Shown here: piece after piece, positions 21,912 to 51,329 of the stretch
Position numbering within the stretch: the first letter of the stretch is position 1
Layout of the letters: every line of letters begins with the position of its first letter
From: Sulfolobus sp. E5-1-F
GTDB taxonomy: Archaea > Thermoproteota > Thermoprotei_A > Sulfolobales > Sulfolobaceae
NCBI RefSeq assembly: GCF_009601705.1
Contig: NZ_CP045687.1
Location: forward strand, 1,586,001 to 1,650,000
DNA length: 64,000 nucleotides
Direction: 5' to 3'
Translations under genes and position numbers: made by a program
The notes under the pieces: generated by a model
Databases searched by the model: none
Seen by the model: the letters and a program-made list of their open reading frames with translations, nothing else
Told to the model about the DNA's origin: nothing

Positions 21912-21985
21912 GCCGCCGTAGCTCAGCCCGGGAGAGCGCCCGGCTGAAGACCGGGTTGTCCGGGGTTCAAGTCCCCGCGGCGGCA
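21912..21985 (+). tRNA. tRNA-Phe (GAA)
   Basis: 74 nt, no encoded CCA and no intron. Acceptor stem GCCGCCG/CGGCGGC with A as discriminator; anticodon stem CCCGG/CCGGG around CTGAAGA, giving anticodon GAA; T stem CGGGG/CCCCG. Its 3' half is the integration target of the downstream plasmid, and the gene is kept intact by integration. Confidence 0.96.
21952..21985 (+). repeat. attL, 34-bp direct repeat in tRNA-Phe
   Basis: The last 34 nt of tRNA-Phe (from CGGGTTGTCC to the discriminator A) recur identically at 51330-51363. This is the left attachment core of the integrated element. The similarity continues slightly leftward with one mismatch. Confidence 0.93.
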
Positions 21986-24410: not shown

Positions 24411-24605
24411 TCATCTTTGTATTTCTCTAACCAGAATTTGTATTAGCTCGTCAGTGTACTGGTATGCTATTTTTTCCAAATCTTCGTCACTAAGCTCAAC
24501 GTCATCAATATCTATTTCAATGTCGTCATAGCATACGATTCCATTTTTAGTACAACTGCAATTATTGTACGCTAGTTCGTCAAACTTCTTCCAGTTCATC
24601 TTCAT
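24411..24605 (-). CDS. 64-residue acidic protein with Cys cluster
   Basis: Short protein with CSC and a further Cys nearby (NNCSCTKNGIVCYDD), then an Asp/Glu-rich stretch (DIEIDIDDVELSDEDLEK) and a helix. The cysteines could bind a metal. Start overlaps the stop of the preceding gene (ATGA). No family recognised. About 66 nt without a gene follow before the next ORF. Confidence 0.55.
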   Translation of the reverse strand: MKMNWKKFDELAYNNCSCTKNGIVCYDDIEIDIDDVELSDEDLEKIAYQYTDELIQILVREIQR

Positions 24606-24940
24606 TCCTCCTCACCAAACTGCTGTACTATCTTCAATGCCTTCCTTGCCTTTTCAGCAACTCTCTTCTTCAGCCATTCTAGTGCCTTTTCGTTAGCCTG
24701 AACTATCAATAATACTTTTTCATCAGATAATCTTATTTCATGATTTACGAGCTTGTAGTACGCAGTTTTGCTTAACTCTCTTGCCTCTACTAGTTCCCAG
24801 ATTGTATCTGCGAACTCATCCGCGAATTCCTCTTTATCTTCTACGTCTAATAGAGAGATTAAAAAAAGGATATTTTGGGTTTCCCCGTGAACAGGGGTGT
24901 TTTCCTTTGAAACCTGAAGTGTGAACATTTCTGTTATCAC
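24602..24940 (-). CDS. 112-residue helical plasmid protein
   Basis: First gene of the leftward operon. GTG at 24940 or ATG at 24928 could start it. Mostly helical, with a HTH-like middle (TAYYKLVNHEIRLSDEKVLLI) resembling DNA-binding helices that recognise sites through a short turn. Its promoter region holds two ATACGT-type palindromes, so its expression is probably controlled together with the divergent DUF5678 gene. Function unknown. Confidence 0.6.
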   Translation of the reverse strand: MITEMFTLQVSKENTPVHGETQNILFLISLLDVEDKEEFADEFADTIWELVEARELSKTAYYKLVNHEIRLSDEKVLLIVQANEKALEWLKKRVAEKARKALKIVQQFGEEE

Positions 24941-24944
24941 TATG

Positions 24945-24959
24945 ATACGTATAACGTAT
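24945..24959. promoter_or_regulatory. operator 1, ATACGT-N3-ACGTAT family
   Basis: ATACGTATAACGTAT is a perfect 6-bp inverted repeat with a 3-nt spacer, in the divergent gap 24941-25029. Four more sites of the same family follow up to 26243. Confidence 0.7.
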
Positions 24960-24978
24960 TAGGTATATAAATTTTTTG

Positions 24979-24993
24979 ATACGTAAAGCGTAG
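24979..24993. promoter_or_regulatory. operator 2, ATACGT-N3-ACGTAT family
   Basis: ATACGTAAAGCGTAG, one perfect and one degenerate half-site, centred 34 bp from operator 1. An AT-rich TATATAAATTT lies between the two. Confidence 0.6.
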
Positions 24994-25029: not shown

Positions 25030-25227
25030 ATGCCGGAGAGTTTGGTTGTCAAAGATCCTAAATACCTGGGTAAGTTCATAGCCGTGGACGAGGACTTCAA
25101 TATTATAGGGTATTCGGATTCGAAGGAAGAATTGAAGAGAGAGTTAGCGGAAAAGGGTTATAGTATCACAGATTACGATATAATATATGTCCCTAAATCC
25201 CTCCAAAAAGATTCTAAAAGTGATTAA
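25030..25227 (+). CDS. DUF5678-domain small protein
   Basis: 65 residues, nearly all one domain: KYLGKFIAVDEDFNIIGYSD then KEELKRELAEKGY and YDIIYV. This matches the DUF5678 pattern known from small proteins often found beside aspartyl proteases. The same domain forms the N-terminus of the protein at 34508. The overlapping next gene encodes a retropepsin-like protease, supporting a functional pair. Two ATACGT palindromes precede it. Molecular role unknown. Confidence 0.75.
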   Translation: MPESLVVKDPKYLGKFIAVDEDFNIIGYSDSKEELKRELAEKGYSITDYDIIYVPKSLQKDSKSD

Positions 25228-25627
25228 ATTTTCTGATTTTTACGGAAATCTTATTCCCTTACTAAAAATAAGGTTTGAATGCCCCAAGGTGGGGAAAGAT
25301 AAACTAGTGTTAGGACTGATAGATACAGGCAGTAGATACACAGTAGTTAACAAATACACTGTTAACGAATGTTTTACAGAAGATGAGATAAAAGGTAGAC
25401 ATGTAGATAAAGTGATAATCAATAACAAGGAGCACTATAGATATTCGTTTAGGTTAATCTTTCCTCAACTTGACAATATAAGCAATATCTTTAATGCAGC
25501 AGTATTAGAATATAGTCCTTTTCCAGAAGAAATAATTCCGGCTATAATTTTAGGTAGAGAAGATTTCTTACGTAATATTATATTGTGTATATATAAATCC
25601 GAATGGATGACAATATATATTGATTAA
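25187..25627 (+). CDS. retropepsin-like aspartic protease
   Basis: 146 residues from ATG 25187; GTG 25220 would leave only an 8-nt overlap with the preceding gene and may be the true start. The retroviral-type active-site motif LVLGLIDTGSRYTVV (Asp46, DTG) is followed, about 75 residues later, by AIILGREDF, corresponding to the second hydrophobic-Gly motif of the fold. One catalytic Asp per chain implies a homodimer. Coupled to the DUF5678 gene. Substrate unknown. Confidence 0.75.
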   Translation: MSLNPSKKILKVIKFSDFYGNLIPLLKIRFECPKVGKDKLVLGLIDTGSRYTVVNKYTVNECFTEDEIKGRHVDKVIINNKEHYRYSFRLIFPQLDNISNIFNAAVLEYSPFPEEIIPAIILGREDFLRNIILCIYKSEWMTIYID

Positions 25628-25680
25628 TAGTTCCAGTACTCCCACACCGCTATTTATTATTTTGTATTAAATGACCAAAC

Positions 25681-25851
25681 ATGGATAAAGATTGTTATCT
25701 AAAAGGATTCGAGGATTGCTTAGATTTAGTATTAATAGAATTGAAGAAATCTAAGAATTTAGAGGAAGCAAAAGTACGCATAGAGGTAATCTACACAGAG
25801 TTAAAAGAGAATAAATACGAGGTTATAAGAAAAATGCTAAATTTGGATTAA
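25681..25851 (+). CDS. 56-residue helical protein
   Basis: ATG 25681 to TAA 25851. Charged, helical (CLDLVLIELKKSKNLEEAK, then VIYTELKENKYEVIRKML). It ends 4 bp inside the convergent wHTH gene. Lies between the protease and the regulators of module 1. No family recognised. Confidence 0.5.
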   Translation: MDKDCYLKGFEDCLDLVLIELKKSKNLEEAKVRIEVIYTELKENKYEVIRKMLNLD

Positions 25852-26150
25852 ACCTCTACCGAAGGTTTTTGCGGGTGTTTGGAACTTTCATTGACTATGT
25901 CAACTATTTCTTTTAACCTCTTAGCTACTTCCTTCCCGTATTCCGTCAAAAATATAAGCCTTCTTCTTGGGAACGTATCTTCCCTCTTATCATAAACAAG
26001 ACCTAATTCCATTAATTCGTCTATAGCTTTCTTAATCGCGTTAGGATTACTCCCTGTTTTTTCAGATATATCCCTAAATGCAGACCCATCTTTTTCGAGT
26101 AAGAATAACAGTACCCTTTGTTGCATTTCAGTAAGCTCTGTACGTTTCAC
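25848..26150 (-). CDS. wHTH regulator of module 1, leftward
   Basis: 100 residues, GTG start at 26150. Winged helix-turn-helix: TEMQQRVLLFLLEKDGSAF, recognition region ISEKTGSNPNAIKKAIDEL, wing FPRRRLIFLTEYGKEV. Clear paralogue of the leftward regulator at 36094 (shared FPR[RK][RK]xI-LT-GKE pattern and LKxIxDI tail). Operator 3 (26141-26153) overlaps its start codon, so autoregulation is likely. Confidence 0.8.
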   Translation of the reverse strand: MKRTELTEMQQRVLLFLLEKDGSAFRDISEKTGSNPNAIKKAIDELMELGLVYDKREDTFPRRRLIFLTEYGKEVAKRLKEIVDIVNESSKHPQKPSVEV

Positions 26151-26153
26151 GTA
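26141..26153. promoter_or_regulatory. operator 3, over the wHTH start codon
   Basis: TACGTTTCACGTA is a perfect inverted repeat with 3-nt spacer. It covers the GTG start of the leftward wHTH gene. Confidence 0.65.
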
Positions 26154-26195
26154 ATAGACTTATACAATATTATATAATTAATATATGTAAACTGC

Positions 26196-26208
26196 TACGT
26201 GAAACGTA
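26196..26208. promoter_or_regulatory. operator 4
   Basis: TACGTGAAACGTA, perfect half-sites with a GAA spacer, in the divergent promoter between the two wHTH genes. Confidence 0.65.
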
Positions 26209-26228
26209 TAGGAATATTTATATATTAG

Positions 26229-26243
26229 ATACGCTATACGTAT
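26229..26243. promoter_or_regulatory. operator 5, just before the rightward wHTH start
   Basis: ATACGCTATACGTAT ends 3 nt before the ATG at 26247 and follows the TATA-like TTTATATATTA, so a bound repressor would block transcription start. Confidence 0.65.
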
Positions 26244-26246
26244 CAT

Positions 26247-26522
26247 ATGAAAATAAGAGATCAGTTGATGTACCCGACAGCTAAGATTTTACTAGTTTTA
26301 TTGGACGGACCAAAGACGGATAAGGAAATAAGAGAAATTCTTGGAATGAGCTTGACTACGTATCATGAAAACATAACATGGCTGATCGCAAACGGATATA
26401 TTGAGAAAAAGGAAGAAAGATATACACTTACTGAAAAAGCCAGGCAACAACTAATTAAGACGTTCTTGCCATTTTCGAGATATATAGAGAAATTGAAAGA
26501 AACTGCCATTACATTAACTTAA
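26247..26522 (+). CDS. wHTH regulator of module 1, rightward
   Basis: 91 residues. Winged helix: LMYPTAKILLVLLDGPKTDK, recognition helix EILGMSLTTYHENITWLI, wing KKEERYTLTEKARQQL. Divergent from the other module-1 regulator, as at 36094/36469. Probably a transcription factor that binds one or more of the ATACGT-type palindromes. A single-membrane-helix protein and a PIP-box protein follow. Confidence 0.8.
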   Translation: MKIRDQLMYPTAKILLVLLDGPKTDKEIREILGMSLTTYHENITWLIANGYIEKKEERYTLTEKARQQLIKTFLPFSRYIEKLKETAITLT

Positions 26523-26554
26523 AAAAAGAGGGCTAATGGCTGGAGGGGTGATCA

Positions 26555-26662
26555 ATGAAAGTATTCTCTGCAATTCTTATAAGCATTACGCTGTTACTCA
26601 TCATCTTCTTCATCATCTTACAACTGGAATTTCTCTCAAAAGAGAGTAAACTGGGGGGTTAA
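26555..26662 (+). CDS. 35-residue membrane peptide
   Basis: ATG 26555, preceded by GGAGGGGTGAT. One hydrophobic helix (FSAILISITLLLIIFFIIL), then a short charged tail whose last codons (KLGG, stop) come from a copy of the plasmid motif. Too small for family recognition; coding is suggested by the strong ribosome binding site and tight spacing to the next gene (1 nt). Confidence 0.55.
   Translation: MKVFSAILISITLLLIIFFIILQLEFLSKESKLGG
26647..26662. repeat. plasmid motif copy (TAAACTGGGGGGTTAA)
   Basis: Six-G variant, containing the stop codon of the 35-residue peptide and placed just before the start of the next gene. Confidence 0.75.
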
Positions 26663-26663
26663 C

Positions 26664-27263
26664 ATGCTAATAGCCATGGGACATACGGTCTATGGAGAGA
26701 GAATAAGAAGAGATTTTCCTAATATCTTAGTATATCCTGAGTTTTTCGACTCTAAGAGAGAACTAATCCAGGGTGATTTCAAAAATTATGTGAAGAAGCT
26801 TTGGAATCTGAGAACTATTATTAAAATCGCAATATATCCCGACTACATCTACTACACGCTTACGGTCCCGAAGAATGTGGAATACATTATTCCGGTCCAT
26901 TCATTAAATGAAGGAGTAGTAAGGATTTACAAACAGTTAAGCAATTTTACAAAAGTCTGGTTGGGCTTTGCATCAAACGAGAAATACAGAGACTATGAGA
27001 TTACTGATTTTATTGAATTTGCTAAAAGGCTTAACGCTAAGAGGTGGTACCTCGGCGTATCAACCAAAAGAGAATTAAGAGAAGCAATACGATGGAACTT
27101 TGATGGCCTAGACATAACTACGATGCTTCTAGGGAAGTTCGAACAGATAAAGAACTTAGATTATGTGGTGAGAAAGCTCAGGGAACTACTAAACTATACA
27201 AAATCTCAGGGATCCCAAAGGCAAACTACTCTTTATGAATTCGTTAACTGGGGGGTTTACTGA
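26664..27263 (+). CDS. 199-residue protein with C-terminal PIP-box
   Basis: Alternating strand/helix pattern compatible with an alpha/beta barrel-like fold (VWLGFASNEKYRDYEITDF, then WYLGVSTKRELREA and FDGLDITTMLLG). No enzyme family recognised with confidence. Near the C-terminus QTTLYEF (residues 187-193) fits the PCNA-interacting peptide consensus QxxLxxF as used by crenarchaeal replication proteins. The final VNWGVY is encoded by a plasmid motif copy. Located just before the origin-like region, so a role in recruiting the host sliding clamp to plasmid replication is a reasonable guess. Confidence 0.6.
   Translation: MLIAMGHTVYGERIRRDFPNILVYPEFFDSKRELIQGDFKNYVKKLWNLRTIIKIAIYPDYIYYTLTVPKNVEYIIPVHSLNEGVVRIYKQLSNFTKVWLGFASNEKYRDYEITDFIEFAKRLNAKRWYLGVSTKRELREAIRWNFDGLDITTMLLGKFEQIKNLDYVVRKLRELLNYTKSQGSQRQTTLYEFVNWGVY
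27244..27259. repeat. plasmid motif copy (TTAACTGGGGGGTTTA)
   Basis: Six-G variant within the last codons of the PIP-box protein, reading V-N-W-G-V-Y. Confidence 0.75.
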
Positions 27264-27264
27264 G

Positions 27265-27594
27265 ATGAGGAAAAACACTCCTGCAAAAATCATGAAGTTA
27301 CTAGAATCAGGTCCTAAGTCTGCAGGTGAAATAGCCTCAGTTCTCAATATACAGTCCAAAGAAGTATATCCGTGTGTTAGGAGATTAGTAAAATGGGGAT
27401 TTGTTGAAGCTGAAGGAACAGCCAATTTAAGGATATACAGACTTACCGATAAGTACTATCAGTTTAAGGAATATGCGGAAAGAGCTAATCTATCCGACGC
27501 TATTTCGGAGTTAGAAAAGATACTGAAAAGGAAACTGACAAACGACGAGATATACGCATTAGTCTGGCTCAGGGTGAGACTATGGAGACAATAA
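27265..27594 (+). CDS. wHTH protein near the origin-like region (a)
   Basis: 109 residues from ATG 27265, 1 nt after the preceding stop. wHTH: PAKIMKLLESGPKSAGEIA, recognition region NIQSKEVYPCVRRLVKWGFV, wing ANLRIYRLTDKYY. Shares an EVYPxxxRxxxW pattern with the next gene, so the two are probably paralogous. An in-frame upstream ATG at 27235 overlaps the preceding gene and is less likely. Candidate replication initiator or repressor. Confidence 0.7.
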   Translation: MRKNTPAKIMKLLESGPKSAGEIASVLNIQSKEVYPCVRRLVKWGFVEAEGTANLRIYRLTDKYYQFKEYAERANLSDAISELEKILKRKLTNDEIYALVWLRVRLWRQ

Positions 27595-28133
27595 CACCGC
27601 TTTTTAGATCTGAAAAGACGCTAGCTACATTTGAACTACTTGCGGATCTCAGGCCCCACACTGCTGCAGAAATAGCTGCATATATAGGAATAGATGATTC
27701 ACGCGAGGTCTACCCCAGGCTAAAACGCTGGACCTCTCTGATCGAAATAAGGAAGATAGGGATCAGAAAGAATATTTACAGACTTAAGGACAGGGTAGTA
27801 GAGGCGGTAAAGAGAGGACTAAAGATATCAACGAAAACTGAAAAGGTCCTAAAGAAGGCTGAGAGGGTAATGAGAAAGACTATGGGAAGAGAACTGACTG
27901 ATGAGGAGAAGGTAGTACTTGAGTTCCTTATTAATTATTATAAGGAGACTGGAAAGAAGTGGTATGAAGGGAAAGTAGAACCTGTAGTGCAGACAATTGC
28001 CAGGGTAAAAGGGTTGGATCCTAGTGATGTTGTTTCTGCGATACTGTCTCTATATCAAGCAGGGCTGATAGCGTTATGGCCTGACGCTGATAGGCCTAAG
28101 AAAGTGGCCGTAACTAAAACACTTCTTGCATGA
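27582..28133 (+). CDS. wHTH protein near the origin-like region (b)
   Basis: 183 residues, overlapping the preceding gene by 13 nt. The N-terminal wHTH (TFELLADLRPHTAAEIAAYI, then SREVYPRLKRWTSLIEIRK) resembles that of its neighbour. A basic linker (about residues 75-105) and a second helical, HTH-like C-terminal domain follow (VQTIARVKGLDPSDVVSAIL). Two DNA-binding domains immediately beside a long repeat-bearing non-coding region make it the best candidate initiator-type protein in the element. No RepA motif recognised. Confidence 0.65.
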   Translation: METITPLFRSEKTLATFELLADLRPHTAAEIAAYIGIDDSREVYPRLKRWTSLIEIRKIGIRKNIYRLKDRVVEAVKRGLKISTKTEKVLKKAERVMRKTMGRELTDEEKVVLEFLINYYKETGKKWYEGKVEPVVQTIARVKGLDPSDVVSAILSLYQAGLIALWPDADRPKKVAVTKTLLA

Positions 28134-28200
28134 GAGAATAACAATTAGTTAACACTATCAACCTTTTTTCTCAATTTTGTAAAATAAATTCTAACAAGCG

Positions 28201-28273
28201 TTAACTCCCCAGTTTAATTTGTAAATTTTTGTCTAAAAGTGTAATTAACTCTTTGAATAAACTCCTCAGTTTA
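28201..28273. repeat. two plasmid motif copies
   Basis: TTAACTCCCCAGTTTA at 28201-28216 and the one-base variant TAAACTCCTCAGTTTA at 28258-28273, both in non-coding DNA just after the wHTH genes. Confidence 0.85.
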
Positions 28274-28559
28274 TTAAAATAAAATTCAATCTTCTCTAAA
28301 AAGAGATATAATATATATAACTACTACCGAAAACATTCCAAACACATTTACTACAAAACTCACTTCACTTTTTACTTTCAATTTTACGTATTTTTACATA
28401 AGCTAACATATAGCAATTGTTTAAGCTAATTGAATTTTTTATTTCACTTTTAGAAAAATTTTAGAAGATGAGAGGCCTTACACTGAGGAAACTACCCTGG
28501 GCCTACTTTTTCATTCCAAAATTCACTGGGCCTTTCACTTTAGTAGTAGTTAATAATAG

Positions 28560-28575
28560 TAAACTCCCCAGTTTC
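28560..28575. repeat. plasmid motif copy (TAAACTCCCCAGTTTC)
   Basis: Perfect motif core, 9 bp from the left arm of the 50-bp inverted repeat. Confidence 0.85.
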
Positions 28576-28583
28576 TCTAGAAA

Positions 28584-28633
28584 AAAAATTCAAACTTTAC
28601 GCGGTCCTTTTCTATATGCGCACTTCACTTTTT
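28584..28633 (+). repeat. left arm of 50-bp inverted repeat
   Basis: This segment recurs in inverted orientation at 49341-49390 with about three mismatches. The identical core includes CGGTCCTTTTCTATATGCGC. The two arms enclose about 20.7 kb holding the conjugation genes and insertion sequences. Confidence 0.85.
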
Positions 28634-28803
28634 TGCATACTTTATGAAACTTACTTTTTCACTTTTTCTTACTATTTTCGCAATTTTCAATCTATTATTT
28701 CTTTCATTTTTTGTCTAATTTTCTACTTTGAATTTATTTACTTTTTATCGCAACGCTCCTTCGCCCGCCCCAATTTCACCGGGCCCCCCAGGTCAGACAG
28801 TCA

Positions 28804-28878
28804 GTAGGTCCAGATTAGAAGTAGGTCCAAGGGATCCGATTAGTTAGTAGGCCCTGTAGGTCCATAGTAGGTAGGTCC
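28804..28878 (+). repeat. GTAGGTCC direct repeats
   Basis: GTAGGTCC occurs at 28804, 28821, 28856 and 28871, with a variant GTAGGCCC at 28847. Irregularly spaced short iterons in the origin-like region; possible initiator binding sites. Confidence 0.6.
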
Positions 28879-28899
28879 TTTTAGGAAGTAGGGAGGGGT

Positions 28900-28918
28900 T
28901 AAGGGGCGAAGCCCCTTA
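28900..28918. other. GAA-loop hairpin in origin-like region
   Basis: AAGGGGC and GCCCCTT pair around a three-base GAA loop, with one more A-T pair outside. It is the strongest hairpin in the non-coding region and could mark a replication or transfer site; it has no T-run like a terminator. Confidence 0.5.
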
Positions 28919-29609
28919 TACATATGATTAGAGATTAGAAGAGTTAGAGAGTCAAGCTGTTAGAGGTCCTCTGTTAAGAGATTAGATAGAATAGCAGCTT
29001 AGAAACTTTGAAGAATAGCAGTTAGTGATGTTTGTAGGATACAGAGCTGTTTAGAAATAATTAGGTTCAGGTTAGGGAGTTAGTTTAGAAGTAAGAATTT
29101 AGGTAAGTATAGTCAGAAAGCAGAAGAAGAGATAGATTAGTCAAGAAAAAATAGAGTAAGTAAAGCTGCAGAAAGCAGATTTGTTTTAGAAAAACCTATG
29201 TAGATTCTTAAAAAAGAGAATTTGAGAGTTAAGAGAAAGTAGGATAGTTTTGGTTAGTGCGTTAGAAGTAAAGAGAAAAGAGAGGAAGAAGCAGAAGCAA
29301 AGAGAAAGTAGTTTTGAAGAGTTAGTCGGATTAGAAAGAGTTGTAAAAAAGCAGAGTTAGTTAGACAGAAGATTTGTAAAGCGATTGGCAGCAAAAACAA
29401 AACAGAGACAGATAAAAAGAAAATGAAGTAGTTGAAGAGAAGATGATTTGTAAAGCAAAAGCAAAAACAGAGACAGAAGAGTAGAGATTTGCAAAGCAAA
29501 AAGAGAGAGCAAAAGAGAGATTTGTTAGTAAAGATAGAGTAAAGTTAGAAGTGAGTTAGAAAAGAAGCAGAGAAACAAAGTTAGAAAGAGAAAAGAGAGT
29601 TTTAGGGGC

Positions 29610-29624
29610 CGGGCGAATAGCCCG
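29610..29624. other. second hairpin of the origin-like region
   Basis: CGGGC and GCCCG around GAATA, at the end of the purine-rich stretch. Short; functional meaning unknown. Confidence 0.35.
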
Positions 29625-29847
29625 AAATTGAAGTTAGAAATTTTTGATAGAGAGTAAGAGAAAAATAAAAGAGAGGGGGAATATAGATGAAGCGCGGAGC
29701 ATCCAGTAACATTGAGTAACATATTCGTAGCATTCAGTTATAATAAGTAAAAGTTCAACCGCATTGAATAGTTTATAGTATATAATTGCAACTATCTGTA
29801 GCATTTTGTGAGGTATTTAAACTTTTAAATATATTATATAAGAGAGC

Positions 29848-30270
29848 ATGAGTGAAAGTAATTTAAATCAAGCAAATCAAAATTCTGATAATAAACAAGA
29901 AATAGAAAAAAAGAAAGAAAAGAAAAAGAAAGCTAAGGAAAATGAAAAAGAAATAGTATTAATACTTCCAGATAAAGCTAAAACATTTAAAGCTAAAGTA
30001 GAAAATTGTATAATTCTTATTCTTAAAAGTGTTGATATTATAAATGAGAAAGATCTTATAACTAGACTTATTTTAGAATGCGAAACTGCTAAAGAATATT
30101 TTAAGAAAACACAAGATGTCGGTTATCTGAGGATAATCTTATGGAAGATGGCACGAAAGGGAATAATAAAAAGGGCAAGAATCCTGGGTGACGGAAGAAG
30201 AAGATACTATTTATTGCCAGAAAAACTGGAACAGCTGAAGGACAGAATTATGCAGGGGCCAGGGGAATAA
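29848..30270 (+). CDS. 140-residue basic wHTH-like protein
   Basis: Polar N-terminus with a lysine-rich tract (residues about 20-35), then a helical domain with a winged-helix look (DLITRLILECETAKEYF, VGYLRIILWKMARKGIIKRA, wing GDGRRRYYLLPEKLEQL). TATA-like TTTAAATATATT lies about 25 nt upstream, so the mRNA may be nearly leaderless. Tail-to-tail with the TraG-like gene, overlapping by 23 bp. Probable DNA-binding plasmid regulator. Confidence 0.65.
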   Translation: MSESNLNQANQNSDNKQEIEKKKEKKKKAKENEKEIVLILPDKAKTFKAKVENCIILILKSVDIINEKDLITRLILECETAKEYFKKTQDVGYLRIILWKMARKGIIKRARILGDGRRRYYLLPEKLEQLKDRIMQGPGE

Positions 30271-33200
30271 CATAATCTGCGCCGCCCATGTCTATTCTTA
30301 AGTTAAGCTCCTTAACGTATACGTTTTTTATCATGTCCTGCCCCCTTGAAAATCTCTGCAGCATTTCTATATATTCGCTATCAATGTAGTATTTATTATC
30401 GTTTATTTGTACTAAGTATTTGCTATCCTCTCTGCCAATTATATCTATGATCAAATCCTTCAGCGTTATCCTTGTTAACTGGGGAGTTAACTCTGGGCCT
30501 TTTGTACTTTCCTTACTTTTGTCTGGTCCCTCTGTAAACTGGGGAGTTAGTTCCAGTCTTTCATTAACAGTTTTAATCTCAGCTGGTCCCTTTTCGTTTC
30601 CATCGTTATTATTAGTAATAATATTTTCACTTTGCTCTCTCTCTTGTTCATTTCCAGTAAACTCCCCAGTTTTTGCAGGATTTTCTAGTTTTTTGTTCTG
30701 TTTTTTCGCCGTAAACTCCCCAGTTTCTATCTTCTTCTTTTCCTTCCCTTTCATTCTTACAGAAAATATCTTTACTTTATTCTTATAATCTTGCGGAATA
30801 CTTTGATCCTGCATGAAGCTATCATAGATCTCTTTCAGTTTTGCAAATTTATCTTCGCTAGTCCAAATGTGAATCTCTTTAAATAAGTTCATAATTGGGA
30901 TATACTTCTGCATATTTCTTCTGACTTGCTCAGGATGAACTTCTATTTCGTTAGGCGATTCAATTTCTATAGCAATCGCTTCGTTATAGTGGGGTCTGAA
31001 TGTGCTTTTATCAACTAGAAACGCTACCAGGTCTGGTCTTATATCGCCCTCCTGCTTGCCTCTTACAACCGTGTAGCCTTTTTCTAGATATTTAGTCATC
31101 ACTCTCATAGCAATCTTTCTACCTTCTTCGTTATCTACAATTCCTTTCAATCTGAACAGCCCGCGATTGTATTGCAGTTTTAGTTTGTTTCCAATTTTTT
31201 CAGTTGTTATATACTGATCTTGTTGCAATCTCGCGATAATTTCCCTCAGTTTTTCTCTGTCAATTCCCAAATCTTTTAATAAATCAGCCTGGAACGTCAT
31301 ATGTTCAGGTGATTTCCATATATAATATAGGATATATTGTTCCAAAGGCTTCGGCACTTCGCAATATCTTAGCACAGGGTTCAGCATTGTCTTCGAATCT
31401 TTCTTCTCAATTTTAGGTGTAAATTTCTCAGCAGTTTTTTGGGCTAACTGCTTAGCGTTACCTTCAGAGCCAACCTTATCTACCCTGTCTATCAGAACTT
31501 TCACTGGCGCAGTCTTTTCGCCCGGCCTTGCTCTCATAAATACTACTGCCTCACCAACCGATAAGTTGGGGACTACTTCGCTAAGTTCTTCGCTAAATGC
31601 TCTATCTAATTTTATTGCTAATTCCTGCCCCCTGGGGCTGCTTTGTGCCATAATGAATTTCACGTTAGTATTTGATAGTACATGCTCCAAAACTCCTGCC
31701 TCTTCTAATTGCGCCAGGTTCTGATTCGCCATTATAAGATGCATTCCGTACTTTCGTGCCTCAGCTAGGATTTCACTTATATAAGGCAGATGAGCGACAT
31801 TCTGGAATTCATCTATATAAGTCAGGATTGGCATTCTATCAGAAGTCTTGATGCTCCTCTGTAAAACGTGGTAAAATAATGATGTTATTATAGAAGCCTG
31901 AACTAAATAACTAGGAATCTCGCCTAGCTTGTTTTTCCCTGTATCAAACAACACTAATACGTTGTCTTTCAATATTTCGTCCCAATTGATAGTAGAAGGT
32001 CCAGTTACCTTCTTCAATATTTCATTCTCTACAAATGGCTTAAGTCTGCTCAGCAAAGATATGAACGATTGGGCGGGCATCTGCTGAAGTGCTTCTACCT
32101 CTTTTTCAAACACCTCGTCGTTTATGTCTAAGTCAAGTTCTTCATTACGCAACGCTAAAACCAGTTCGTAAATGTCTGAAAGTATGGGGTTGTCAGTTTT
32201 TTCGTAAAGCTTCGTAAGAAGAACTTGGAATATGTACTTTACGTTCACTGCAGTCTCTACTAGGCCTAACATTTTTTCGAGAATAGCAGTAGCAATTGAT
32301 ACACCTAGCGAAATGTTATCTTTTCTGTTCTCGAAAACGTTCGGCAATTGCAGAGGATTAATTGCGAAGTTTGGTATAGAAGCGTCAAAATAATAATCAG
32401 CATAAATTGAAAGATCTCTAGCCAAGTCATGGTTTGGGTCTATAACAACTTGAGCTTTCTTCTTGTTAGTCAGTTTTTTCATTTCTACAACAAGCTTCGT
32501 AATTGTTGTTGACTTACCAGACCCAGTAGCTCCTACGATATAAAGATGCCGATAGAAATCTTCTAAATCAAGTCTGAAAGGCGTACCATCTTCCAGGTGA
32601 CCGATCATTATGTCATGTCTTTCAACTGTAGTTAACGGCAACTGAGCAGATCTAGAAAATTCAATTTTTACTACAGAAGGATTAGGTACTATAACTAGTG
32701 TCGGTAGCGAAGATCTGTTCATGTTTAACCACAGGGTTTGGTATAGAGATGGAAACGTAGGAAGCTTAGGCGGTATATACAATATATTATATATTGCTTT
32801 CTCTCTTCTCTTCCTCAAGAAATAGAAATCTAGCAAGTAATTTCCTAGAATAGCATTTCCGTCAGTCCTTACTGGGAAATTAACATACTGTTTAAACTCA
32901 TCAGCAAGCAATAAAACCCTGCTTCTATCGGATCCTAAAATTGCAACCCTCAGATAAAACAGATCTTCCCTCATTTTGTTGCGTATAATCTGAGCTTCAG
33001 CATCGATATCTTCTGATGGTACATTGTACTTTTGTCTTGATTTTTTTATTGCCAACAATCTGTTCATGTGTTTTGTATGTAGACCCCTTAGACGATTGTC
33101 CAACACAGCCCACACTAAAAGCCCATCACCTTTTTCGAAGTCGTTCAAGAAGCTGTGTAAATCATGAACCTCTAAGGGATATGGAAAATCTCTTTCTTTC

Positions 33201-33424
33201 TTCAGCAAAAATTCAACGTAATATTGGAAACTGGGGAGTTTTTTCGCTTCATTTATTCCGAAATATTGCGCTAAGGATTGTTTAGCAGTTATCGTATTAA
33301 CGTAAAAATGCAGATATTTCTCACCTTGATAATATAGCACTCCGAATGTTCTTCCTAGAAGATTTATCAGACTAACTTTAGAATAATCAATATCTACCCT
33401 GGGATAAAGCTCATACCACCTCAT
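30248..33424 (-). CDS. TraG/VirD4-HerA-type conjugation ATPase
   Basis: 1058 residues, similar in size and motifs to the TraG-like protein of pNOB8-type plasmids. Walker A YIVGATGSGKSTT (residues 298-306), Walker B ILTYIDEFQNV (about 534-541), then ARKYGMHLIMANQNLAQ as in HerA/VirD4 sensors. Likely motor or coupling ATPase that moves DNA to the transfer channel. No clear membrane anchor; the small two-helix gene upstream (33421) may supply it. A C-terminal extension (about 700-1058) carries a low-complexity linker with TGEFT and LTPQFT/LTPQL segments, each encoded by a plasmid motif copy. Confidence 0.88.
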   Translation of the reverse strand: MRWYELYPRVDIDYSKVSLINLLGRTFGVLYYQGEKYLHFYVNTITAKQSLAQYFGINEAKKLPSFQYYVEFLLKKERDFPYPLEVHDLHSFLNDFEKGDGLLVWAVLDNRLRGLHTKHMNRLLAIKKSRQKYNVPSEDIDAEAQIIRNKMREDLFYLRVAILGSDRSRVLLLADEFKQYVNFPVRTDGNAILGNYLLDFYFLRKRREKAIYNILYIPPKLPTFPSLYQTLWLNMNRSSLPTLVIVPNPSVVKIEFSRSAQLPLTTVERHDIMIGHLEDGTPFRLDLEDFYRHLYIVGATGSGKSTTITKLVVEMKKLTNKKKAQVVIDPNHDLARDLSIYADYYFDASIPNFAINPLQLPNVFENRKDNISLGVSIATAILEKMLGLVETAVNVKYIFQVLLTKLYEKTDNPILSDIYELVLALRNEELDLDINDEVFEKEVEALQQMPAQSFISLLSRLKPFVENEILKKVTGPSTINWDEILKDNVLVLFDTGKNKLGEIPSYLVQASIITSLFYHVLQRSIKTSDRMPILTYIDEFQNVAHLPYISEILAEARKYGMHLIMANQNLAQLEEAGVLEHVLSNTNVKFIMAQSSPRGQELAIKLDRAFSEELSEVVPNLSVGEAVVFMRARPGEKTAPVKVLIDRVDKVGSEGNAKQLAQKTAEKFTPKIEKKDSKTMLNPVLRYCEVPKPLEQYILYYIWKSPEHMTFQADLLKDLGIDREKLREIIARLQQDQYITTEKIGNKLKLQYNRGLFRLKGIVDNEEGRKIAMRVMTKYLEKGYTVVRGKQEGDIRPDLVAFLVDKSTFRPHYNEAIAIEIESPNEIEVHPEQVRRNMQKYIPIMNLFKEIHIWTSEDKFAKLKEIYDSFMQDQSIPQDYKNKVKIFSVRMKGKEKKKIETGEFTAKKQNKKLENPAKTGEFTGNEQEREQSENIITNNNDGNEKGPAEIKTVNERLELTPQFTEGPDKSKESTKGPELTPQLTRITLKDLIIDIIGREDSKYLVQINDNKYYIDSEYIEMLQRFSRGQDMIKNVYVKELNLRIDMGGADYVIPLAPA
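30475..30549. repeat. two plasmid motif copies in traG-like gene
   Basis: TTAACTGGGGAGTTAA at 30475-30490 and TAAACTGGGGAGTTAG at 30535-30549. On the coding (minus) strand they encode LTPQL and LTPQF. Confidence 0.85.
30658..30727. repeat. two plasmid motif copies in traG-like gene
   Basis: TAAACTCCCCAGTTTT at 30658-30673 and TAAACTCCCCAGTTTC at 30712-30727. On the coding (minus) strand both encode TGEFT, i.e. the opposite orientation and a different frame from the pair at 30475-30549. Confidence 0.85.
33227..33242. repeat. plasmid motif copy in traG-like gene
   Basis: GAAACTGGGGAGTTTT, encoding KLPSF near residue 63 of the ATPase, a third reading frame for the same DNA word. Confidence 0.8.
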
Positions 33425-33687
33425 TTCATCACCACCGCAACTAAAATTACTACTGCAAATAATACTATTACAGCCGAAACATATTTTCTAAAAGCAGTAA
33501 ACATATGAGACGTCAAATACGTCAAAAGAACTGCCAGAAATATAAGAATGATGGGACTCAATTCTTCTGCTTGCATTTGCGTTAGTCCTAAGTATTTTGC
33601 TAGAAATGTGGTTATATACTGTAAAATTTCATTGTACGCTTTATATATCATACCCAGTACATTGATAGATATCATCACCTGAATCAA
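33421..33687 (-). CDS. two-helix membrane protein before traG-like gene
   Basis: 88 residues (ATG 33675 is a shorter alternative after the TTG 33687 start). Two strong membrane segments (SPIILIFLAVLLTYLTSHMF and YVSAVIVLFAVVILVAVVM) and a helical N-terminus. Its stop overlaps the ATG of the ATPase gene (4 nt), so the two are translated together. A membrane anchor or partner for the VirD4-like ATPase is likely. Confidence 0.7.
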   Translation of the reverse strand: MIQVMISINVLGMIYKAYNEILQYITTFLAKYLGLTQMQAEELSPIILIFLAVLLTYLTSHMFTAFRKYVSAVIVLFAVVILVAVVMK

Positions 33688-33757
33688 GGAAAATACTTAA
33701 ATATGAGGACCCGAAATTTTCCTAATACCTTTGAATGATAACGCCATTAAAACCACC

Positions 33758-33885
33758 TCAACTTATCATCCTCTCAATAACTTTCCTAACCTTATCCTTC
33801 ACGTCAGAGATCTGAGCAATAACCTCATCGTCAATAACTTTGTTAAGTAGTCGATATTCTTTTGAGTGCTTAATACCTCAGTCAT
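33758..33885 (-). pseudogene. small ORF with an apparent 1-nt deletion
   Basis: ATG 33885 overlaps the stop of the preceding small gene. It reads MTEVLSTQKNIDYL and would then continue as NKVIDDEVIAQISDVKD to a stop at 33758-33760 only if one A is restored near 33842. As written the frame stops after 28 codons. The helical C-terminal part is protein-like. Either a frameshifted 42-residue gene or a sequence error. Confidence 0.35.
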
Positions 33886-34057
33886 TTCCTCTCACCTGGG
33901 ATATTAAGTAATCTATTAGGGATTCTTTGGCTTTCGTTAGGTATTCGTATGCCTCATCATCGTAGCTCATTGCAACCTTCATAGCCTCATTAATGTGATA
34001 GATTGCTGTGATGATTTCTAGTAGTTCATTACCATTAACTTGTCTCTGTGCCTGCAT
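33878..34057 (-). CDS. 59-residue helical plasmid protein
   Basis: ATG 34057 to TGA 33878. Mostly helical (NELLEIITAIYHINEAMK, then DEAYEYLTKAKESLIDYLI). Starts 3 nt after the SWIM-protein stop and overlaps the next small ORF. No family recognised; leftward operon with the SWIM protein. Confidence 0.5.
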   Translation of the reverse strand: MQAQRQVNGNELLEIITAIYHINEAMKVAMSYDDEAYEYLTKAKESLIDYLISQVRGND

Positions 34058-34060
34058 TCT

Positions 34061-34381
34061 TCATCCCCAGCTCGCTATGTCCTCTTCTATCTTCATTAGT
34101 TCGTTTCTTGTCTTCTCTACTTCCTCCTTAACCTTAGCATCATTTAATAACTGCTTTAGAGTTTCGATGTGCCAGCAGTGTCTTCTAAATGTGTATCCTT
34201 CGCAATCACAGGAAGCTTTAACAGTCTTCAGAGTTAGAGGATCTATTACTAACCTCGTATAGTGGGTTAAATTTGGTCTGGACTTACTTTCTATATCTGC
34301 ACTTACGATTATTCCTTCACCAAAATTGTAAAAAACATCTAACCTTTTGATCGGATTTTTGGGGATTTGTGTGGAAATCAT
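34061..34381 (-). CDS. SWIM zinc-finger protein
   Basis: 106 residues. CDCEGYTFRRHCWHI matches the SWIM motif CxC-xn-CxH, preceded by the usual beta strands (HYTRLVIDPLTLKTVKASC). A helical tail follows. SWIM domains bind DNA or proteins and occur in recombination and defence proteins. Its start lies 3 bp from a module-2 operator (34384-34401), so it is probably under the same control as the divergent DUF5678-Panacea gene. Confidence 0.75.
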   Translation of the reverse strand: MISTQIPKNPIKRLDVFYNFGEGIIVSADIESKSRPNLTHYTRLVIDPLTLKTVKASCDCEGYTFRRHCWHIETLKQLLNDAKVKEEVEKTRNELMKIEEDIASWG

Positions 34382-34383
34382 GT

Positions 34384-34401
34384 TTGTTTCATATTTTTAA
34401 A
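34384..34401 (-). promoter_or_regulatory. module-2 operator, copy A (inverted)
   Basis: TTGTTTCATATTTTTAAA is the reverse complement, with one change, of the word TTTAAAAACATGAAACAA found at 34430 and 36450. It sits at the start of the SWIM gene. Confidence 0.6.
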
Positions 34402-34429
34402 CACAAAACAAGTATATAAATGTTTCTAA

Positions 34430-34447
34430 TTTAAAAACATGAAACAA
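34430..34447 (+). promoter_or_regulatory. module-2 operator, copy B
   Basis: TTTAAAAACATGAAACAA, identical to the 18 bp at 36450-36467. With copy A it frames the TATA-like AGTATATAAATG (34411-34422) in the divergent promoter. Confidence 0.65.
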
Positions 34448-34507
34448 TAAAACACGGTATAGGTAGGCAAAGTTATAGCTTTAGAAGTAAATATTTAATT
34501 TGAGAGT

Positions 34508-35098
34508 ATGTCGGAGAACATTAAGCTCGTAAGAAAGTATTTGGCAATAGATGAGAATAGGAATATTGTGGCTGAGGGTAATTCGTGGGAGGAGGTTGAG
34601 GAGATAATGAAAAAGAAGGGCTATAAAAGAAGTCAATACGATATTTTAATCGTCGTTGAAGGAAATGAGAACAAATACATCACGGGAAAAAGAGCAATTA
34701 TCCTTACAATTTTAGAATTGGCTAGGGAAAAACAAATTGTATTGTCTAAAACTAAAATACAAAAATTAGTTTTCTTAGTCCAAAAGGAATTGGGAAAGGA
34801 ATATTTTAAATTCGTACCTTATAAGTACGGCCCATGGAGCTCTGAATTAGCCGAAGAATTAGATAAATTAGTAAATGAAGGAATAGTTAAGAAGTACGAG
34901 AAGGATTCATCGAATTTCTACGAGCTTCAAACGCAGGCCGAAAAGGATAAAGAAGTAGAAAGGAAGGCAAATAAGTATATTAGTATGCCTTTAGAATACC
35001 TTCTAGCCCTTATTTATGCAAGGTATCCAGAAATGACTGAGCTGAGTGAGATAAAGGAGAAAGTTAAGGAATTTCAGAAAAGATTTAATATATTGTGA
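34508..35098 (+). CDS. DUF5678-Panacea fusion protein
   Basis: 196 residues. The N-terminal domain (residues about 8-50: KYLAIDENRNIVAEG, then KKKGYKRSQYDILIV) is clearly related to the DUF5678 protein at 25030 (shared A-[VI]-D-E-x-x-N-I, KGY and YDI). The rest (KIQKLVFLVQKELGKEYF, FVPYKYGPWSSELAEELDKL) matches the Panacea/SocA-type (DUF4065-like) domain, known as the antitoxin of many toxin-antitoxin pairs. The next gene starts 6 nt later and encodes a serine protease, so an antitoxin/effector pair is suspected. Confidence 0.75.
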   Translation: MSENIKLVRKYLAIDENRNIVAEGNSWEEVEEIMKKKGYKRSQYDILIVVEGNENKYITGKRAIILTILELAREKQIVLSKTKIQKLVFLVQKELGKEYFKFVPYKYGPWSSELAEELDKLVNEGIVKKYEKDSSNFYELQTQAEKDKEVERKANKYISMPLEYLLALIYARYPEMTELSEIKEKVKEFQKRFNIL

Positions 35099-35104
35099 AG
35101 AAAA

Positions 35105-36067
35105 ATGGAGGACATTCTTCAAAAATTATTAAATGAGATTGAGAAATCAATTTCAGACTATGAAAAAAGTTTTGGTGATAATAAAGTATTTACAATAATT
35201 CTTGCCTACCATACGGGTAGTTTCTCTCCTGCCTCAATTTCTAGGCAAGATGTAGAGGTTATCTATACTTTTTTGAAGAATAAAATGAAATTCATAGGGA
35301 ATAAAAAAGTAGAGGAATTTCATGTAATATTACATTCTAGTGGTGGAGATCCAGATGCCGCATATCAAATAGCCAGAATTATAGATAGGATAGGTAACTC
35401 TATAGCTAATTCCGTAGTTTATTGTACCCCAAGGTTTGCTAAAAGTGCTGCAACTCTTATGGCTTTAGGTGGCAATAGGATTATAATGACCGAAATAGCG
35501 GAATTAGGTCCTATAGATCCACAGATATATTTTGAAGGGCAGTGGATCTCAGCAAAGACTGTAAGGGATTCTATGAAGTATATGATTGGAACCCTACTAG
35601 ACCTTTTAAGGGAAAAAGGAGGAGAGATTAATTTTGGCAATGTACCAGGGTTGCAGCAAGTTGTGAATAGTATCGTAGATAGTATAGTTGGAAGATTTGT
35701 AGGTATAGGTGAGTACGAATCGTTAATAAGTTATATAAAGCAATTGGCTAAGGAGCTCCTCGCTCTCAGAATGTTCGAAAATCCTTCGGAAATAGATAAT
35801 ATTGTGAATAACCTCATAGAAAGGTATTCTTCACATGGGATGGTAATAGATTATCAAAAAGCTCAGCAACTGGGTTTAAGGATTGAAAAAGTAAACGATA
35901 ACATGGAAGATAAGTTATTGCAAATATACTCTAATCTCGGCAATCTATTTAAATATATAGACATGTTAGGTTCTGGAATATCAGAACAGATTAATCCCCA
36001 ATATATACCAACGTATCCCTGGAACATAGAGCATGGTATTATCTTTCTACCTTATCCAAATCAATGA
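35105..36067 (+). CDS. SDH/SppA-type serine protease (ClpP fold)
   Basis: 320 residues. The ClpP/crotonase-fold pattern FHVILHSSGGDPDAAYQIAR is followed by FAKSAATLMALGGNRIIM, with Ser114 the likely nucleophile, then AELGPIDPQI. This order is that of the SDH family (serine dehydrogenase proteinase, Pfam SDH_protease), usually linked to membrane-protein turnover. No signal peptide, so probably cytoplasmic. Encoded directly after the DUF5678-Panacea protein and likely regulated by it. Natural substrate unknown. Confidence 0.8.
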   Translation: MEDILQKLLNEIEKSISDYEKSFGDNKVFTIILAYHTGSFSPASISRQDVEVIYTFLKNKMKFIGNKKVEEFHVILHSSGGDPDAAYQIARIIDRIGNSIANSVVYCTPRFAKSAATLMALGGNRIIMTEIAELGPIDPQIYFEGQWISAKTVRDSMKYMIGTLLDLLREKGGEINFGNVPGLQQVVNSIVDSIVGRFVGIGEYESLISYIKQLAKELLALRMFENPSEIDNIVNNLIERYSSHGMVIDYQKAQQLGLRIEKVNDNMEDKLLQIYSNLGNLFKYIDMLGSGISEQINPQYIPTYPWNIEHGIIFLPYPNQ

Positions 36068-36093
36068 AGATTAATCATAAGGGCGGTTAATTT

Positions 36094-36372
36094 TTAACTA
36101 TTAAGAATATCATAGATTTTCTTTAAATATTCGGAGATTTCCTTACCCTTATCTGTTAATCTGATTATCTTCTTACGCGGAAATTCTTGTTGTTGTTCTT
36201 CTTTGGCTAATCCTATTTCTACTAAGTAATTTACCGCATCGACTACGGTCTTTGAACCCAATTTAGTCCTCTCTATTATCTCCCTAACACTCATACCCTG
36301 GGAATCCGATAAAGCTATTAGTATTTTCTGTTCTGGGTTAAGGAACTCTCTCTGTCGCATTTCGAATTTCAA
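36094..36372 (-). CDS. wHTH regulator of module 2, leftward
   Basis: 92 residues from TTG 36372 (ATG 36360 is possible). Winged helix: NPEQKILIALSDSQGMS, recognition helix RTKLGSKTVVDAVNYLVEIG, wing FPRKKIIRLTDKGKEI. Paralogue of the module-1 regulator at 25848, sharing wing and C-terminal helix. Convergent with the protease gene, as in module 1. Confidence 0.8.
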   Translation of the reverse strand: MKFEMRQREFLNPEQKILIALSDSQGMSVREIIERTKLGSKTVVDAVNYLVEIGLAKEEQQQEFPRKKIIRLTDKGKEISEYLKKIYDILNS

Positions 36373-36449
36373 AAGGAGAAACGTTATTATTAATCTGAGC
36401 TTTCTGTTTTGAAATTAAAAAACCGAAACATTTATAGCTATGTTTAACT

Positions 36450-36467
36450 TTTAAAAACATGAAACAA
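36450..36467 (+). promoter_or_regulatory. module-2 operator, copy C
   Basis: TTTAAAAACATGAAACAA, identical to 34430-34447, ends 1 nt before the ATG of the rightward wHTH gene. A degenerate relative (AAAAAACCGAAACA) lies about 30 bp upstream. Confidence 0.65.
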
Positions 36468-36468
36468 G

Positions 36469-36720
36469 ATGCCCACTCTAAACGAGTTTGAATACCCTAT
36501 ATATTATTTAGAAATATTGAAAAGACTGAACGAACCTAAAGGCATAAGACAATTAGAAAAAGAGACTGGGCTTAATTATCATAAAATATACAACGCATTA
36601 AAAAACCTGGAAATAGACGGAATAGTATCTAGAAGAGATGCTGGAAAGGAAAAGCTGTATTATCTAACTGAAAAGGGATATGAACTTTTAAGAAAACTTA
36701 GGGTGATATTAATTGAGTAA
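36469..36720 (+). CDS. wHTH regulator of module 2, rightward
   Basis: 83 residues. Winged helix: EYPIYYLEILKRLNEPKG, recognition helix KETGLNYHKIYNALKNLE, wing GKEKLYYLTEKGYELL. Same relative position and orientation as 26247 in module 1. The operator word abuts its start codon, suggesting autoregulation. Confidence 0.8.
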   Translation: MPTLNEFEYPIYYLEILKRLNEPKGIRQLEKETGLNYHKIYNALKNLEIDGIVSRRDAGKEKLYYLTEKGYELLRKLRVILIE

Positions 36721-36922
36721 GCTGAAGGAGTATAAGATAATTTCTACAGATCTCATTAAGGAAGTTGAGGAGTTTAAGAACTTCGTCCCTGAAAATAACA
36801 TGTATGATAAGATTAAGGAGGACATATCAAAGAACGGAATAAAGGTACCGCTTATTGTTAACCAAAACTATGAGTTAATTAACGGATATACAAGGCTAAA
36901 GATAGCCAGGGAACTTTTCTAA
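36713..36922 (+). CDS. stand-alone ParB-like (ParB N) domain
   Basis: 69 residues from TTG 36713, overlapping the wHTH gene by 8 nt. Pattern IKEDISKNGIKVPLIVNQNY then ELINGYTRLKIAREL matches the ParB/Srx N-terminal fold, which binds a nucleotide in CTP-dependent ParB proteins. It ends right after the conserved GYTRLKIA helix, so the DNA-binding HTH is missing. Either a minimal domain protein or a truncated gene; no parA is present in the element. Confidence 0.65.
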   Translation: MSKLKEYKIISTDLIKEVEEFKNFVPENNMYDKIKEDISKNGIKVPLIVNQNYELINGYTRLKIARELF

Positions 36923-46582: not shown

Positions 46583-46981
46583 GTGGAACTGAAGTCCACG
46601 AGACATGTAAAGTATCTCTGTAACTATCATTTTGTATGGATACCGAAGTACAGAAGAGACGTTCTCAGAGGAGATATCTCTGAATACACTAAACAAGTCT
46701 TAAAATCAATAGCTGAAGAATTAGGTTGTGAGATAATTGCACTTGAGGTAATGCCAGACCATGTTCATCTGTTTGTTAATTGCCCACCTAGATATTCGCC
46801 ATCATACCTAGCAAATTACTTCAAAGGGAAATCAGCAAGGCTCATTCTGAAGAGATACCCAGACTTGAAAACACGTGGGAAGCTATGGACAAGAAGTTAT
46901 TTCGTTGCAACAGCTGGGAATGTTTCAAGTGAGATAATTAAGAAATATATAGAAAGTCAGTGGGAGAATGAAGAGGAGTAA
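46583..46981 (+). CDS. tnpA: TnpA HUH transposase (IS200/IS605)
   Basis: 132 residues from GTG 46583. Y1-type HUH protein: ARHxxYH-like opening KYLCNYHFVWIPKYRRDVL, the metal-binding HUH as VMPDHVHLFVNCPP, and the catalytic tyrosine in the C-terminal helix (EIIKKYIESQ). Full length and intact. Overlaps tnpB by 14 nt. Confidence 0.92.
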   Translation: MELKSTRHVKYLCNYHFVWIPKYRRDVLRGDISEYTKQVLKSIAEELGCEIIALEVMPDHVHLFVNCPPRYSPSYLANYFKGKSARLILKRYPDLKTRGKLWTRSYFVATAGNVSSEIIKKYIESQWENEEE

Positions 46982-48236: not shown

Positions 48237-49340
48237 GGCGGGGAGGAGGTCAGGTTCTTAAACACGGTGTAAAGCGAGTAGAAGATCATGGCCAGCACGA
48301 AGATCAACTCGCGGAAGATGAACTTGGTGGAGCTCGTGAAGGGAAGGAAGGCCTTGATGTTCCTGTAAGACGTCTCAATGGGACTCCTAACCTTGTTGTA
48401 CAACTTCAGCACTTCCCTCTTGGGTAGGTCGAGGTTGGTCGCCCTCGCGAAGTACACCACGGTCTTCTTCCTCTTCTTAACGATTTCCTTACCATACACC
48501 AGGAGTCTGAACTTGACCTGCTCTTCCTTCTTATGCCTCTTACTGTTTGTCGTGTACTCTCCGTCGAACTCCTCGTAGATCTTCACGTCCCCCACAGGAC
48601 TCCTATCACGAACTTGAACTGCGATATGAACTTGAGGACTTCCACGGTGTAGAATCCCGCGTCCAAGGTTACGAGCCCCACCTTGAAGCCCATTCCCACA
48701 ATTTGCTCCATGAGAAGCTTCACGATCTCATCCTTGCTCATCCCGTTAACTTGGGGAACGAAAGCTAGGAGGAGCACCATATTCTGATACTTCGTGGTCG
48801 CGGTAGCGTAGTTCCACGAGTTCCCCTTGGCTGAACTACCCAGTCCCTCCACCGGCTTACCATACCACGTCTTGGTTGTCCAGTCTATGGAGATGTCGAC
48901 TTCCTTCACTCCCTTGAGTATCTCCATGGAAATCCTCCTCATGGACTCTAATAGCTTCTCGATCACCTCAGTTCCCTGCTCCTCCACGTAGTTCCTCACG
49001 GTCTGTGGTGACACGTTATACCCTTTGGACTTGCTTTCCACGGAGTCGTTCCACAAGCACGCGGAGACCAGAACTCTCGATACCTCCTCCGCCTTTCTTC
49101 CCTTGAAGCTCAACATGGAAAGTAATTTATACCCTACTTGTTGTAGATTATTTTGGTGAGGAAGACCAGGTGTTATCACCTTGTCTTCACCACGTGATAA
49201 TACCGGCTTCCTCACCTTAAATCTTTCTTCAATTAATTGCGTTCTTGTCAAAGCTATAAATTCTATTATTTTTCAGAATCTGATATTACCCAACCAAAAT
49301 TATTTTTTGTAAAATGATTTTGGGTCTACCGTTTACTGAG

Positions 49341-51176: not shown

Positions 51177-51329
51177 CCAAAGTGAACCTTGGAGTTAACG
51201 CAATGAAACACTTATGGGCTATTCTGACTTTCATATCTTTTTTTTCTTCTTTTTTACGGATCAGATCTTCATTCTCTCGTGAAACGTCTAACGTTACTAA
51301 AACACGTTAACTGGAAACTTTTTAGAGAT

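Follow-up and report, generated by a model that had tools for sequence, protein, structure and literature searches.

Few roles are known for the stand-alone retropepsins of prokaryotes. Retropepsins of clan AA, e.g. DDI1, ApRick and the retroviral proteases, carry a D[TS]G motif and a hydrophobic-hydrophobic-Gly motif. In the ImmR-ImmA and RosmerTA systems, a helix-turn-helix regulator, a protease and a conjugative element form one circuit, and ImmA cuts ImmR, releasing the conjugative element ICEBs1 (PMC6540685). Panacea (SocA) domains pair with Fic/Doc toxins in PanTA systems, and bacterial Panacea loci with accessory proteases have been recorded (PMC8832971). Reported here are two gene modules in a 64,000-nucleotide (nt) stretch, called the window, of the 2.54 Mb single-contig genome of Sulfolobus sp. 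E5-1-F (NZ_CP045687.1, positions 1,586,001–1,650,000). In each module a gene for a DUF5678 protein is followed by a protease gene and a divergent pair of winged helix-turn-helix (wHTH) genes. Sequence comparisons suggest that DUF5678 is a dedicated retropepsin partner, most likely of the antitoxin or inhibitor type, in an overlooked two-gene system of archaeal chromosomes and conjugative plasmids; the plasmid copies would form part of an autoregulated circuit and module 2 would be a derived form. The chances of this reading as a whole appear about even.

The initial annotation described two modules of the same plan with eight genes. All eight open reading frames are present, and module 1 contains an additional gene for a protein of 56 amino acids (aa):

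25030–25227, forward strand: module 1 DUF5678 protein P0001, 65 aa (PF18929)
25187–25627, forward strand: module 1 retropepsin-like aspartic protease P0002, 146 aa, with D46-T47-G48 and ILGR at 121–124
25681–25851, forward strand: conserved 56 aa protein between the retropepsin and wHTH genes, also in loci L114, L115, L171, L173 and L174
25848–26150, reverse strand: module 1 leftward wHTH, MarR/TrmB-like (Pfam scan)
26247–26522, forward strand: module 1 rightward wHTH (Pfam scan)
34508–35098, forward strand: module 2 DUF5678-Panacea fusion P0005, 196 aa, junction at about 34682
35105–36067, forward strand: module 2 SDH/ClpP-fold serine protease P0006, 320 aa, with conserved S114, D138 and H244
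36094–36372, reverse strand: module 2 leftward wHTH (Pfam scan; paralogue comparison)
36469–36720, forward strand: module 2 rightward wHTH (Pfam scan)

The association of DUF5678 with proteases was counted in 398 genomes of the Thermoproteota, 63 of which give a PF18929 match at E ≤ 1e-3. Retropepsins within 800 bp of a DUF5678 gene were detected by a motif first pass followed by profile extension; the counts are raw and ignore kinship among genomes. An intact D[TS]G retropepsin lies within this distance in 56 of 81 loci, and in 53 it is directly 3′ on the same strand. The expected enrichment of DUF5678 genes beside proteases is therefore strong. Nine further loci have a decayed retropepsin and 16 have none, some of the latter stopping at a contig edge. 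Twelve of the retropepsin-less loci were inspected and no other protease was found beside DUF5678; module 2 of the window is the sole locus of the census with a non-retropepsin protease next to DUF5678. A reverse search in 60 relatives shows DUF5678 directly 5′ in 24 of 26 strong retropepsin loci; three of these 24 (L161, L163, L165) are weak, with E between 0.001 and 0.02. The chance rate of such pairing is roughly 0.1% per locus (about 80 retropepsin matches over 60 genomes with around 2,000 genes apiece), and no retropepsin was found in 14 control loci consisting of spurious weak Pfam matches (L015-L025, L028-L030). Roughly a dozen DUF5678 genes occur on their own, and in several cases an intact DUF5678 gene has a frameshifted retropepsin beside it. 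This asymmetry resembles that of orphan antitoxins and thus supports an antitoxin-type function.

P0002 alone shows a weak match to Pfam RVP (E = 0.088). A profile of 36 retropepsins neighboring DUF5678 genes, P0002 included, matches DDI1, Rickettsia ApRick and lentiviral proteases with E-values from 5e-10 to 1e-8; over DDI1, ApRick and the proteases of EIAV, FIV and HIV-2 the range is 5e-10 to 3e-5. Of the 36 members, 23 match Pfam gag-asp_proteas. D46 and G48 of the D[TS]G motif are invariant in these 36 diverse members, as is G123 of the hydrophobic-hydrophobic-Gly motif; I121-L122-G123-R124 is invariant in alignment A1. Conservation of the active site, on which the initial annotation depended, thus holds in homologues. 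P0002 is thereby predicted to be a retropepsin, an assignment that is weak from the single sequence but firm for the family because of the family profile and the invariant D, G and G. In contrast to other clan AA members, the archaeal proteins are stand-alone and coupled to DUF5678. An AlphaFold2 model of P0002 built from two sequences has a predicted local distance difference test score (pLDDT) of 39.6, too low for a reading of the fold. No relatives of the retropepsin or of the SDH protease were found in viral contigs. Two genomes carry an extra DUF5678 joined to a retropepsin domain that lacks the catalytic DTG (L069:9491-9973 in G005 and L070:9754-10305 in G003; hhalign 96%, E = 1e-9), and these fusions are situated directly before an active DUF5678-retropepsin pair.

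The DUF5678 domains of P0001 and P0005 share a 37% identity over 46 residues (BLASTP, E = 3e-9), as had been proposed from their alignment. P0001 clears the PF18929 gathering score (23.6 vs 23.2 bits). P0005 is below it (18.2 vs 23.2 bits), but a DUF5678 profile of archaeal relatives matches P0005 at E = 7.7e-14, making it a clear homologue. The modeled domain is a small beta-beta-alpha-beta structure with a core pLDDT of about 90. Often, DUF5678 makes up the C-terminal half of a protein whose N-terminus is ribbon-helix-helix (RHH)-like (L058, L088, L113, L164), although most of these N-termini are under Pfam cut-offs. This is the layout of type II antitoxins and counts for an antitoxin function. 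A HicB-like antitoxin domain was considered and rejected, the likeness being at the motif level only (hhalign probability 2.7%), although the two may be related all the same; matches of the DUF5678 profile to BLIP-II in the PDB are repeat artefacts. PADLOC gave no match for DUF5678, the retropepsin or the SDH protease, and a tblastn search for bacterial DUF5678 in plasmids gave none. The single paper naming DUF5678 that full-text search brought up is an unrelated plant study, and targeted full-text searches found no link between retropepsins and toxin-antitoxin systems. The corresponding plasmid section of pTC1 was described as hypothetical proteins with MarR-like and CopG regulators (PMC4390865).

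The leftward wHTH proteins of the two modules are paralogues, as previously supposed (33% identity, E = 1e-18), and the rightward ones are weakly similar (E = 0.005). Within each module, a common predicted operator is found both upstream of DUF5678 and between the wHTH genes; its best score is 58 in both modules, and shuffled sequences reach at most 33 and 41. The putative half-sites flank the TATA boxes of the DUF5678 and wHTH-wHTH promoters, and their spacing is 34 bp at both module 1 copies. In both modules, a divergent gene of the plasmid core shares the promoter region of the DUF5678 operon:

24602–24940, reverse strand: divergent gene of 112 aa in the leftward plasmid-core operon, sharing the promoter region of module 1
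24944–24958, forward strand: module 1 operator half-site GATACGTATAACGTA (sequence repeat comparison)
24964–24971: module 1 TATA box TATATAAA, between the two half-sites
24978–24992, forward strand: module 1 operator half-site GATACGTAAAGCGTA (sequence repeat comparison)
26196–26244: module 1 operator copy in the wHTH-wHTH intergenic region, with half-sites 26196–26210 and 26230–26244, TATA 26217–26224
34061–34381, reverse strand: gene for a SWIM-like zinc finger, transcribed away from module 2, at the head of a leftward run that includes the coupling ATPase of the type IV secretion system (T4SS)
34384–34447: module 2 operator, half-site 34384–34401 and inverted half-site 34430–34447, TATA 34413–34420
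36450–36467, reverse strand: module 2 operator copy in the wHTH-wHTH intergenic region (sequence comparison)

The 112 aa divergent gene has no Pfam match, and the same divergent layout upstream of module 1 is repeated in L171, L173 and L174. The operators of modules 1 and 2 show no similarity to each other. Three operator types can be distinguished: that of module 1 and the free Sulfolobus islandicus plasmids pHVE14 and pARN3, which are related to the element carrying the modules; that of module 2 and a related element in genome G005; and that of a retropepsin version in a sister species, G004. Each matches its own wHTH region only (own-module scores 52–70, cross-module ≤33, shuffle 99% point 34). 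A scan of the whole genome found exact operator sites confined to the modules. The operator is kept in six of six module 1 loci with wHTH genes and lost in two of two without them. Because these module-specific operators co-occur with the wHTH genes, the pairs are a true part of each module, as first proposed. From the position of the sites and this co-occurrence we infer that the wHTH proteins bind the predicted operators and repress. Archaeal promoter biology gains from the plasmid version three wHTH-operator specificities of natural origin.

Module 2 carries a different protease, in agreement with the initial annotation. P0006 clears the gathering score of SDH_protease PF01972 (37.1 vs 31.3), and S114, D138 and H244 are invariant in eight SDH sequences; their catalytic role is putative, assumed from the family name. 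The Panacea-type domain proposed for P0005 scores under the SocA/Panacea PF13274 gathering score (11.2 vs 25.7), but residues 61–188 match the DarG antitoxin C-terminal domain (E = 1e-9) and PDC-M19A (E = 1e-19), and the predicted Panacea assignment is sound.

At the module 2 site of the sister species (G004, L061), with the same SWIM and ParB-like neighbors, there is a near-identical stand-alone DUF5678 gene together with a retropepsin and a wHTH pair. The G005 element (L064) is 97.4% identical in nt sequence to window positions 34682–36915, the SDH/wHTH block. There an intact DUF5678 stops a few codons past the junction and is followed by ~758 bp with a Fic/Doc gene (PF02661, 37.9 bits), divergent from the Panacea gene, and a different Panacea N-terminus, then by the SDH gene. 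The DUF5678-Panacea junction has a one-base overlap, and the arrangement of this fusion with SDH is found in the window only. Since G005 keeps a separate intact DUF5678 and the junction shows the one-base overlap, the fusion is most readily interpreted as a recent in-frame deletion junction with ~758 bp probably lost; the change may have been in the opposite direction, by insertion in G005. On these comparisons module 2 is a putative derivative of a DUF5678-retropepsin module. The first ~60 residues of the G005 Panacea protein (L064:7054-7674) match the stand-alone phrog_12592 family of SIRV7-10, SMV1 and Acidianus tailed spindle virus. The SDH protease was rejected as a general DUF5678 partner: its only near-identical homologue is in G005, and the other SDH loci read are without Panacea or DUF5678.

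A proposed mechanism is as follows. DUF5678 would bind the retropepsin and hold it in check, while the divergent wHTH pair would bind the operators bracketing the TATA boxes of its own and the DUF5678 promoters, forming a closed circuit. The protease operon would be repressed along with the divergent plasmid-core operon and both would be switched on together; the retropepsin may act on a cell or plasmid protein. In module 2 an ancestral retropepsin would have been replaced by a cassette of Fic/Doc, Panacea and SDH protease, and a later deletion would have joined DUF5678 to Panacea. The order of these rearrangements and the class of target are suggested rather than demonstrated. The likeness to type II toxin-antitoxin systems consists of a small first gene overlapping the effector gene (by 41 bp in module 1), the 3′ same-strand position of the retropepsin, RHH-like fusions in relatives, a putatively autoregulated promoter, plasmid carriage and orphan partners. 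The differences are an effector that is a retropepsin, here a putative toxin, and a DNA-binding part that on the plasmid is a separate wHTH pair. That the pairs constitute an unrecognised family of archaeal systems built on a protease, of antitoxin-toxin or repressor-protease type, with the retropepsin as effector, DUF5678 as inhibitor and the fused dead retropepsin as a dominant-negative subunit in some species, is possible but somewhat doubtful. Several points weigh against an antitoxin or inhibitor function. Pairs without wHTH genes are conserved on chromosomes (L150, L151, L155), a pattern closer to a settled function than to addiction. The window DUF5678 proteins carry no DNA-binding domain, and neither Foldseek nor VIA-align gave a confident structural match for the DUF5678 model. 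The census is confined to Thermoproteota. A small partner conserved across an archaeal phylum makes retropepsin control and purpose directly testable.

Alternatively, the protease may be an anti-repressor like ImmA, which on a signal via DUF5678 would cut a wHTH protein, or elsewhere the RHH-DUF5678 protein itself, and so release both its own gene and the divergent plasmid operon from repression. The ICEBs1 precedent counts for this, and repressor pair, protease and operators do form one circuit whose operator regions are common with the divergent plasmid-core operon in module 1 and the SWIM/T4SS ATPase operon in module 2. However, many DUF5678-retropepsin pairs are without a wHTH gene, so that DUF5678 is the constant partner. 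The window proteases are of the aspartic (D[TS]G) or SDH serine type and not metalloproteases, and there are two wHTH proteins and an additional dedicated partner; this explanation appears unlikely. Module 2 by itself is rather probably a remnant of a Panacea toxin-antitoxin, in which Panacea would have opposed a deleted Fic/Doc toxin, SDH would be an accessory third gene and the fusion to DUF5678 would be accidental. G005 retains just such a Fic gene, the obvious Panacea partner there, divergent from Panacea and followed by SDH, in keeping with the recorded bacterial loci; an antitoxin role of Panacea against SDH is hypothetical. In contrast to known PanTA systems, the window contains no recognised toxin gene, and its Panacea domain is joined to DUF5678. 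With an open frame, an intact operator and the putative catalytic residues of SDH retained, this fusion may still be functional. A Panacea remnant has no bearing on module 1 and is compatible with DUF5678 as a retropepsin partner there. Quite improbable is the explanation of the initial annotation, that DUF5678 is an adaptor or inhibitor common to interchangeable, unrelated protease effectors. The same site does carry near-identical DUF5678 with a retropepsin (L061) or, fused to Panacea, with SDH (window), but this single occurrence is explained by the one-base-overlap deletion junction, and in the rest of the census retropepsin is the sole protease adjoining DUF5678. The interchangeability of proteases is thus unsupported, the module 2 fusion being one young rearrangement.

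Both modules are within an integrated element of ~29.4 kb bounded by a 38-bp direct repeat, the 3′ end of tRNA-Phe, at 21948 and 51326:

21948–21985, forward strand: left att repeat, 3′ part of tRNA-Phe; right copy at 51326–51363

The element encodes a conjugative T4SS coupling ATPase (30248–33424). The plasmid DUF5678 and retropepsin genes are under purifying selection, with a ratio of nonsynonymous to synonymous substitution rates (dN/dS) of 0.04–0.12 where computable. Module 1, comprising DUF5678, retropepsin and two wHTH genes, is a conserved unit of Sulfolobus conjugative plasmids under this selection. In several Sulfolobaceae, the chromosomal DUF5678-retropepsin pair without wHTH is found beside a conserved unknown gene (MPQSLKPKSIKLLHYEEKKDD...).

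The ParB-like gene after module 2 (36713–36922) is shortened to 69 aa, compared with 462 aa in L061 and 436 aa in L064. Window positions 33877–36915 are inverted relative to the right flank when compared with the G005 element, and the region is therefore recombination-prone. The last gene in multiubiquitin-ThiF operons of a Methylocystis plasmid (L118:2848-3747, with E2 and DUF6527 genes in the operon) and a Rhizobium plasmid (L119:2746-3642) encodes an SDH relative of P0006. The integrated element also contains an IS200/IS605-like TnpA/TnpB pair and broken transposase-like open reading frames (46583–48236, 48233–49251).

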